From Candidatus Kryptoniota bacterium (lineage in GTDB: Bacteria > Bacteroidota > Ignavibacteria > Kryptoniales > JAKASW01): 64,000 nt of DNA. The position numbers and the translations under genes are program-made. Location: contig DATCTN010000031.1 of the NCBI GenBank assembly GCA_036567965.1, positions 434,001 to 498,000 of the forward strand. The letters run 5' to 3'. Shown piece by piece: positions 56,585 through 59,219 of the stretch (its first letter is position 1; each line of letters opens with the position of its first letter). The notes under the pieces are model-generated. The model was not told the DNA's origin. It saw only the letters and a program-made list of their open reading frames with translations, and made no database searches.

Positions 56585-56698
56585 TGTGGGCGATAGAGGA
56601 TTCCTCCGAAGGAGTCCCTTTCCCGAAGGGATCCTCCGAAGGAGTCTCCCGAAGTGACCTGCGGTTGGACCTTCGGGACGGGAGAACCTCTGACCTCT
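56585..56698. repeat. Split copy of tRNA-Val 3' end with 80-bp palindrome-rich insert
   Basis: Bases 56585-56603 repeat 56712-56730 exactly (TGTGGGCGATAGAGGATTC), and 56684-56698 repeat 56731-56745 (GAACCTCTGACCTCT). Together they form a copy of the 3' third of the tRNA-Val gene, interrupted in its T loop by 56604-56683. The insert carries CTCCGAAGGAG twice, CCCTTTCCCGAAGGG and TCCCGAAG/CTTCGGGA arms: compact hairpins. This could be a mini-element inserted into a duplicated tRNA end. Confidence 0.8.
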
Positions 56699-56714
56699 TC
56701 TCTTTCATATCTGT

Positions 56715-56788
56715 GGGCGATAGAGGATTCGAACCTCTGACCTCTACAATGTCAATGTAGCGCTCTAAACCAACTGAGCTAATCGCCC
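56715..56788 (-). tRNA. tRNA-Val(GAC)
   Basis: 74 nt. On the minus strand the cloverleaf starts GGGCGATTAGCTCAGTTGGT, with anticodon arm CTACA-TTGACAT-TGTAG (anticodon GAC) and the T arm AGAGGTTCGAATCCTCT. No encoded CCA. Confidence 0.93.
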
Positions 56789-57033: not shown

Positions 57034-57900
57034 TTACTCGCTGGAATCATTTGAAACTACGATCAGTCCCAAAATCCCAAGGTCACAGTAAAGAAGCGGC
57101 GCGAGGATCGGGGCGAAGACAAGAACTCTCTCCAGACTGAGCCGGCCATTGTCAGCTAGATCGCCCGACAAATGAAACGCGAACCCGAGAACCCCGACAA
57201 CTATACCTGTAACCATTGTCCAAAAATATGTGAGCTCATCTCCCGCAGACCATCTCCTGCTAACCGCCAGAGATATCACTACTCCTGTCGAGAAAAGTCC
57301 GTACGCGATAGGGATAAGCTTATATAATGTATATCCATATTGGCCGTGATCGATTATCGACGTGAGCGCACTCGCCGCGAATCCCAGTCCGACAAGCCAG
57401 AGAAAATGCCGGTCCCTCGAGATCGGTGCCTTGAACGTGCCGAGTCCCGGCACCTCGAGAATTCCCGTTTCCCTTTCTTCGACCACCGCGTACAATCCCA
57501 CGAGCGAAATTCCGGCAAAAGCGAGCGGGGCAAGTATAGGTGACGCGAATGTCAGCCATATCCAGGTCAGCTGTCCGAGCGGGTTCAGCGCCTGGTTCGC
57601 GTGGAACGCAGTGCCGACGACTCCCACCATTACGCCAATCGCCATGAGACAGATATGGAAAAGTGCGATCGTCTTCCCAGGCTTCGGCTTCAAAGCGACG
57701 AGAAAACTTGAAAGTGCAGCAAGCGGCACAAAGAAGATCGGGATGAGCTCGTACAAAGGGACGAAATCGTTCACGGCATGCGCAAGAATTACATCGACCC
57801 CTGTGAAAATGAAATTCATCCCAACCAGTATTAGAAGAAGCCGGTTTTTTTCAAACGGAAGCTTTACTCTCGCAAGATGGAACACGGATATCTCGCTCAT
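57034..57900 (-). CDS. Membrane protein with internal duplication (possible b-heme partner)
   Basis: 288 residues, about 8 TM helices in two repeated halves. First half: LAHAVNDFVPLYELIPIFF with H41, GVVGTAFHANQAL with H100, then SPILAPLAFAGISLVGLYAV. Second half: IIDHGQYGYTLYKLIPIAYG with H185, GVLGFAFHLSGDL with H243, then APILAPLLYCDLGILGLIV. The His pairs are spaced 59 and 58 residues in the two halves. No known family is recognised. Its ATG lies inside the stop of the octaheme cytochrome gene (ATGA), so both are one unit. The histidines suggest b-heme or quinol binding (inference). Confidence 0.78.
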   Translation of the reverse strand: MSEISVFHLARVKLPFEKNRLLLILVGMNFIFTGVDVILAHAVNDFVPLYELIPIFFVPLAALSSFLVALKPKPGKTIALFHICLMAIGVMVGVVGTAFHANQALNPLGQLTWIWLTFASPILAPLAFAGISLVGLYAVVEERETGILEVPGLGTFKAPISRDRHFLWLVGLGFAASALTSIIDHGQYGYTLYKLIPIAYGLFSTGVVISLAVSRRWSAGDELTYFWTMVTGIVVGVLGFAFHLSGDLADNGRLSLERVLVFAPILAPLLYCDLGILGLIVVSNDSSE

Positions 57901-59219
57901 GGCCGTCTTCCGGATCGATGCAGGCGGCGCAGCTCGGCGGCATCCTCTTTGACTTCATTCAGCTGTTTCAGCATCGGATAAACTCCATGCCACTGAACGA
58001 AATCCGGTCCCTGCATGTATGCGGCGAACTTCGCTGTCCTGCCGTAATAATGCCACAGGTCGAAGGCGTCGAAACTGATTTGTGTGGCGAACGGTTTAGA
58101 AGTTATGATGTTATCTTTGATCAATCCTGATATTATGGCGGACGCCTCTGCGACTTTTCCATTTACAAAAGATGTAACGCTGTCGGCACGTTGATATACG
58201 TTCTTAATGAACGTCTGCGAATGGCAGTTGGCGCACACTTCCTGCATCGCCAGCCTGTTCTGCTGTCCGTTCGGTCTGTCCGTAGACACGGCGGCAAAGA
58301 GATATTTTGTGAGTCGTGTCCCAACTTCGTGGGTGGTTCCCTGTCCGCCGAACCCGCTCATATGGCATGTGGCGCAAGTCGGGGCAGGCATGTCGCTGGT
58401 TGTGAGACGACCCGGTTTCTGGTCCCAGTTCCATTTTTCTCCTTCAGTCGCATACATCACACCGTGCGCGGATTCCTTGTAGATCTCGTCCTGCGGATGA
58501 TCGGGACCAAGATGGCACTGTCCGCATACTTCAGGTTTGCGGACCTGGGCGAGTGAGAACTCGTGTCTCAAATGACACTTGTTGCAGTTTCCGATGCTTC
58601 CATCTTTGTTGGGCTTTCCGATCTCGTGACAACTCTGGCATGCCGCAGGAGTGACGTTGGGGCCTTCCATATCGAAGATCGAATTTCTCAATGCGGTTGG
58701 GATTCCGTTCGGCCCGAGTGTGAGTTCGGAGATCTGCTCGGTTTGCTTCTTCTGTTCCGGCGAGAAGTCATCGAAGCCGGTGAGCGCCATCCAGGCGGGC
58801 CCGGCGTGGCGGCTGTGAAGATATTCGTCTGTCTCTCTGACATGGCAGCGTGCGCACTGTTTCGGCGTTGGCTCGCCGGTAATGAAGAAACCTTCATGGT
58901 CGTGACCCATCGGATTATTCCTGTCAACTACATGGCAGTCCTCGCATTTCACGCCTGACTTTCCCATGCTGCTTGACGCATACTGGTACACGATATCCGG
59001 CGTCACTCTTTGATGACAAGTCGCACACTTGTCCCCGCCCGAATACGCGACCTGTTCACCTCCGAGCTTTGAGCCGGCGGATTGGACGCGGAGCGTCTCG
59101 CCGCCAGAAGGTATTCTTGTGAAAAAGTAGAGTGCTACGAGCACGATCAGCGTGATCGATGCACCAACCATGAATGATCTCGGGATCTCTCGTATCATCT
59201 GGGCTTCCTTCCGTTCCAT
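57897..59219 (-). CDS. Octaheme c-type cytochrome (HAO-like)
   Basis: 440 residues with an N-terminal TM anchor (about 15-33) and eight CxxCH motifs: CATCH, CEDCH, CARCH, CQSCH, CNKCH, CGQCH, CATCH and CANCH. After the last one the helical C-terminus (FDAFDLWHYYGRTAKFAAYM, QGPDFVQWHGVYPML) is of the hydroxylamine oxidoreductase type. HAO-family members oxidise or reduce nitrogen compounds; whether the active-site heme has the Tyr crosslink needed for oxidation cannot be decided here. Anchored on the outside of the inner membrane. Coupled to the duplicated membrane protein. Confidence 0.88.
   Translation of the reverse strand: MERKEAQMIREIPRSFMVGASITLIVLVALYFFTRIPSGGETLRVQSAGSKLGGEQVAYSGGDKCATCHQRVTPDIVYQYASSSMGKSGVKCEDCHVVDRNNPMGHDHEGFFITGEPTPKQCARCHVRETDEYLHSRHAGPAWMALTGFDDFSPEQKKQTEQISELTLGPNGIPTALRNSIFDMEGPNVTPAACQSCHEIGKPNKDGSIGNCNKCHLRHEFSLAQVRKPEVCGQCHLGPDHPQDEIYKESAHGVMYATEGEKWNWDQKPGRLTTSDMPAPTCATCHMSGFGGQGTTHEVGTRLTKYLFAAVSTDRPNGQQNRLAMQEVCANCHSQTFIKNVYQRADSVTSFVNGKVAEASAIISGLIKDNIITSKPFATQISFDAFDLWHYYGRTAKFAAYMQGPDFVQWHGVYPMLKQLNEVKEDAAELRRLHRSGRRP

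Follow-up and report, generated by a model that had tools for sequence, protein, structure and literature searches.

How is an octaheme cytochrome wired to the quinone pool when the gene beside it encodes a membrane protein of no named family? HAO-family proteins have been recorded in 65 phyla, and for most of clades I and II no function is known (PMC9213671). The HAO modules described so far use NapC/cM552 (PMC3701875). The locus studied here belongs to a Candidatus Kryptoniota bacterium (contig DATCTN010000031.1); the window is the whole stretch of DNA that was analysed, 64,000 nucleotides long. The question arises from two of its genes:

57897..59219, (-) strand: octaheme cytochrome gene, HAO/OCC family, 440 aa, 8 CXXCH, N-terminal membrane anchor
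57034..57900, (-) strand: gene of an 8-TM membrane protein from an unnamed family, 288 aa, made of two homologous halves with four TM helices each

The octaheme cytochrome and its surroundings

The cytochrome gene comes first, and its stop codon overlaps the start codon of the membrane-protein gene in an ATGA at 57897-57900. Both open reading frames were thus found where the initial annotation had placed an eight-heme HAO-like cytochrome overlapping a membrane protein. To one side of the pair lie tRNA genes and thrS, to the other a RelA/SpoT-type gene, the names thrS and RelA/SpoT-type being taken from the sequences of these genes. No further cytochrome or nitrogen genes adjoin it at the window locus. 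Beyond the two genes, no conserved neighbours were found except lineage-specific synteny, and the pair stands alone. No plasmid copies of the pair were found, and searches for defence systems gave no matches. Next to an intact tRNA-Val (56713-56788), the 3' half of this tRNA recurs in the window as a broken copy (56585-56710), whose parts are separated by short palindromes over about 80 bases (CTCCGAAGGAG, present twice). This may be the remnant of an integration or of a repeat insertion.

The cytochrome is an octaheme protein of the HAO/OCC family. It matches the Pfam family PF13447 (Multi-haem_cyto) with 104 bits against a cut-off of 21.9. Among PDB sequences it matches IhOCC (4qo5) at 8e-30 and HAOs at 1e-24 to 1e-25. 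The fold of its model (VIA) agrees, with Z scores of 23.8 to 4qo5 and 18.5-19.8 to HAO/HDH structures, and NrfA resembles the cytochrome only weakly. The eight CXXCH motifs and eight further histidines are invariant in 58 aligned relatives. A helix predicted at residues 14-35 forms the N-terminal membrane anchor. Such a segment is present in 75 of 79 relatives, and the others include truncated or frameshifted copies. One cytochrome with seven CXXCH (L011) carries a frameshift inside heme 1, and three loci (L015, L070, L080) are cut by contig ends.

Two sites bear on the direction of catalysis:

58497..58502, (-) strand: Asp240-His241 of the cytochrome, aligned to the active-site Asp-His of NeHAO (GxDH)
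57987..57992, (-) strand: Trp410-His411 of the cytochrome, in the region of the heme-cross-linking Tyr of oxidative HAOs

Asp240-His241 is invariant, and the active-site Asp-His that follows heme 6 (GVDH in NeHAO) is retained. Trp410-His411 is likewise invariant, in all 80 paired cytochromes. In a profile alignment Tyr467 of NeHAO falls on Trp410 or, if a one-residue gap is moved, on His411. The window cytochrome lacks the Tyr through which oxidative HAOs form a cross-link to heme 4 of an adjacent subunit. A Tyr in this region was found in the octaheme proteins of L112, L113 and L117, and an invariant Tyr414 lies a few residues past Trp410-His411 in the paired cytochromes. The loss of the cross-linking Tyr has been read as a mark of reductive HAO-family members, which are reported with a His at the key site (PMC12758564, PMC3701875). 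Since Trp-His stands in place of this Tyr, the window cytochrome is probably a reductase.

A duplicated membrane protein with four invariant histidines

In the membrane protein a 4-TM unit is genuinely duplicated in tandem. Compared profile against profile with hhalign, the halves prove homologous (99% probability, P 2.2e-18), and their alignment sets H41 over H185 and H100 over H243. Four histidines are concerned:

57778..57780, (-) strand: His41 codon, TM1, first half; invariant in 77/77
57601..57603, (-) strand: His100 codon, TM3, first half; invariant in 77/77
57346..57348, (-) strand: His185 codon, TM5, second half, after the invariant Asp184; invariant in 77/77
57172..57174, (-) strand: His243 codon, TM7, second half; invariant in 77/77

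The spacing is 59 residues for H41/H100 and 58 for H185/H243, and the second histidine of each half lies in a GxxGxxxH context. Identity within the family falls to 20%, yet these four are kept in every one of the 77 homologues. The protein has seven histidines in all and the other three vary, so the pattern is not due to chance. The 77-row alignment contains 21 invariant columns, among them, besides the four histidines, Asp36, Glu51 and Asp184. AlphaFold2, run with the 77 homologues, predicts eight TM helices (pLDDT 88.8), in which the four histidines occupy positions 24, 25, 24 and 25 of TM1, 3, 5 and 7. Two homologous halves, each with a pair of TM histidines 58-59 residues apart, had been proposed from the window alone, with the reservation that variable histidines in homologues would speak against a di-b-heme or quinol-handling role; the duplication is borne out and this refutation failed.

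The orientation of the protein can be estimated from its charges. Lysine and arginine are enriched in most of the loops on the N-terminal side (1.3-3.7 in N, L2 and L6, 0.3-1.1 in the outer loops). The long loop 4 is not positive, and the call therefore rests on the other loops. Both termini are thus probably cytoplasmic and the four histidines periplasmic. With the histidines near the periplasmic ends of the helices, both putative hemes would lie on the same side and would not be stacked across the membrane.

No fitting family was found for the 77 members in Pfam or NCBIfam. They gave no match to the cytochrome b-type families of Pfam at E values up to 0.1, and NrfD/PsrC families were absent from their hits. 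A search of PDB sequences with the family profile found nothing, and Foldseek with the model gave no match at E 0.001. Fold comparison returned weak matches only (GPCRs, rhodopsins, GGCX). The best of these, GGCX (VIA Z 8.5), is suggestive as this enzyme binds vitamin K hydroquinone, but the score lies in the chance range for helical bundles. Pfam DUF2530, hit under the cut-off (E 7e-4) by 4 of the 77 members, was rejected as a chance TM match. The protein is unlike NapC/NrfH, which have several CXXCH motifs and a single-TM anchor: it lacks CXXCH and is predicted to cross the membrane eight times. Elsewhere in the class, proteins with only one 4-TM unit (L007/L132, L133, L134) carry the same His pair and match the profile over one half; they are not duplicated, have no heme genes nearby and are likely unduplicated relatives of the family.

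Linkage of the two genes and partners in sister clades

The octaheme gene and the membrane-protein gene constantly co-occur and co-evolve. Among 395 genomes of the phylum, seven full-length matches to the membrane protein were found, and all seven adjoin an octaheme gene. A wider scan, in which each species of bacteria and archaea was represented by one genome, found 80 membrane-protein loci in about ten phyla (Bacteroidota, Rhodothermota, Poribacteria, Acidobacteriota, Planctomycetota, Fidelibacterota, Gemmatimonadota, Myxococcota, Bdellovibrionota and Pseudomonadota). Cultured carriers include Aquisphaera insulae, Paludisphaera soli and Roseithermus sacchariphilus. An octaheme gene lies directly upstream on the same strand at 79 of the 79 loci that have upstream sequence, and the two genes mostly overlap or lie within 63 bases of each other, at most 151. 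The initial annotation had called for a search for constant co-occurrence with HAO-like genes and would have given up the partnership had homologues never stood next to multiheme genes; these loci settle the point in its favour.

In the class, 11 of 391 genomes carry both genes, 380 carry neither and none carries one alone (Fisher 1.4e-21, with genomes treated as independent). The 11 genomes with a membrane-protein hit above 250 bits are the same 11 with a cytochrome above 559 bits, and the next-best cytochromes of the class fall to about 362 bits. Within the window's genus, six of the 13 sampled genomes have both genes and seven have neither. A mirror-tree comparison over 78 pairs gave r 0.93, which none of 2000 permutations reached. 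In a tree of 112 octaheme proteins, made by a quick method and rooted for drawing only, the paired cytochromes form one side of a branch with SH-aLRT 98.

Other octaheme clades offer an indication of what the partner may do. Octaheme proteins of about 440 aa and 33-39% identity are encoded between genes for a NapH-like ferredoxin and a NapC/NirT-type triheme protein (L097-L100, L159-L162), so that the class also contains an HAO module linked to quinol in this way. Octaheme HAO-family genes of about 540 aa immediately follow a gene for a bc-type cytochrome b (L101-L105, L166), which suggests that here the octaheme protein is part of a bc-like complex. In L166 a Rieske-like sequence was noticed upstream. 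Other octaheme clades have no obvious partner gene. A clade of short proteins (about 415 aa; L109, L113, L115, L117) adjoins hemerythrin/PAS or ferredoxin-type genes in some genomes, and its members in L113 and L117 have a Tyr at the cross-link region (WYG). Because sister clades have quinone-reactive partners, the 8-TM protein stands in the place of the quinone link. This position is the strongest argument for its role. It also fits the earlier view that the protein stands in place of a NapC-like one, as sister clades of the class have NapC/NapH-like proteins or cytochrome b there.

Proposed function and comparison with known systems

The reading that we favour, with somewhat better than even confidence, is a self-contained quinol-dependent reductase module in which a di-heme-b 8-TM subunit feeds an octaheme reductase. 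The 8-TM protein would oxidise quinol on the periplasmic face of the membrane and pass the electrons through two bis-His b hemes, one per half, held by His41/His100 and His185/His243. The two invariant His pairs are compatible with such bound hemes. Asp36, Glu51 and Asp184, invariant and near the periplasmic side, are candidate proton acceptors. Electrons would then go directly to the membrane-anchored octaheme cytochrome, at whose open heme a small oxide of nitrogen, or a compound like it, may be reduced. NarI and cytochrome bc1 are transmembrane electron wires, and the NapC/NrfH step is electroneutral. With both heme sites on the periplasmic side, the electron step proposed here would be electroneutral, like that of NapC/NrfH. 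Heme b content, quinol oxidation, direct docking, the direction of electron flow and the substrate are all points that we infer. It counts against the di-heme module that the membrane protein showed no detectable relationship to known families of cytochromes b or quinone-binding proteins.

As for the substrate, nitrite, NO and hydroxylamine are precedents in the HAO family. The window genome has no convincing NrfA and no convincing respiratory nitrate reductase, with weak partial matches to each, and its context therefore does not indicate a respiratory role with nitrogen oxides. It has one heme-copper oxidase. For other HAO clades sulfur compounds have been proposed (PMC9213671).

The same histidines could serve a protein that binds no heme. 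It is unlikely, though worth weighing, that the 8-TM protein is a heme-free, NrfD-like quinol dehydrogenase, in which the histidines and acids make up quinol sites and the nearest c heme receives its electrons from quinol without an intermediate. The four histidines lie at the periplasmic helix ends, where a quinol site beside the cytochrome would be expected, and invariant Asp and Glu lie near them. For NrfD-like subunits, an interaction with quinone that needs no redox cofactors has been described (PMC8076601). However, the 77 members have no NrfD match, and two invariant histidines per half, on helices 1 and 3 and at equal depth, are the classic arrangement of bis-His heme ligation. If the protein carried no electrons at all, it might instead be a metal, proton-relay or assembly protein that matures the cytochrome. 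Its histidines and carboxylates could bind Cu or Zn, and its family matches no named one. We regard this as highly improbable, as an assembly factor of this kind is absent from the other octaheme clades examined, several of which have electron-transfer partners at the same place, and the membrane protein co-evolves tightly with the cytochrome.

The module might also run the other way, the cytochrome oxidising hydroxylamine or another substrate and the membrane protein reducing quinone. The HAO pocket (Asp240-His241) is retained, a heme-copper oxidase is present in the window genome, and some carrier groups, e.g. Isosphaeraceae, are regarded as aerobic. Ammonia oxidisers are known to have hydroxylamine:quinone modules that run forward (PMC3701875). 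The invariant Trp-His in place of the cross-linking Tyr speaks against this direction and makes it quite unlikely, with the small doubt about the missing Tyr that is left by the invariant Tyr414 close by.

The cytochrome belongs to a known family, and the membrane partner and the module are a new form of the HAO-quinone type. No published description of the gene pair was found in the open-access literature. In about ten phyla, one HAO-family clade is now tied to the same universal membrane partner, which has no name, and the pair points to a new wiring of the octaheme enzyme family to the membrane quinone pool. With these two genes, the role of HAOs outside nitrifiers and their route to that pool can be tested directly. 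Should the heme prediction hold, the protein would have a new membrane cytochrome b architecture. We give an even chance to the fuller proposal: an undescribed class of di-heme-b quinol oxidoreductase, built from a duplicated 4-TM two-His domain with both hemes periplasmic, that replaces NapC/NrfH as quinone link in a widespread reductive HAO clade of about ten phyla and gives this clade a new respiratory or detoxifying role.

Among known systems, the class-mate clades share an octaheme gene beside a quinone-reactive membrane gene, but their membrane partners are unrelated and they form separate clades. IhOCC of Ignicoccus hospitalis (4qo5) is the closest solved relative of the window cytochrome (Z 23.8). 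It has PDV where the paired clade has GPDH and is about 80 residues longer, and it is not known to have the 8-TM partner. The NrfHA cytochrome c nitrite reductase complex is similar in layout, a quinol:multiheme reductase of two subunits that faces the periplasm. NrfA has five hemes and matches the window cytochrome weakly; NrfH, a c-type protein with four hemes and one TM, does not match the membrane protein at all. The reverse-HURM of Nautilia and Campylobacter (HaoA without the Tyr, with CycB/NapC) likewise combines an octaheme HAO that lacks the cross-link Tyr with one membrane partner that wires it to the quinone pool (PMC3701875). That partner is a NapC/NrfH-type multiheme c cytochrome, whereas the 8-TM protein of the window lacks CXXCH and has four invariant histidines.
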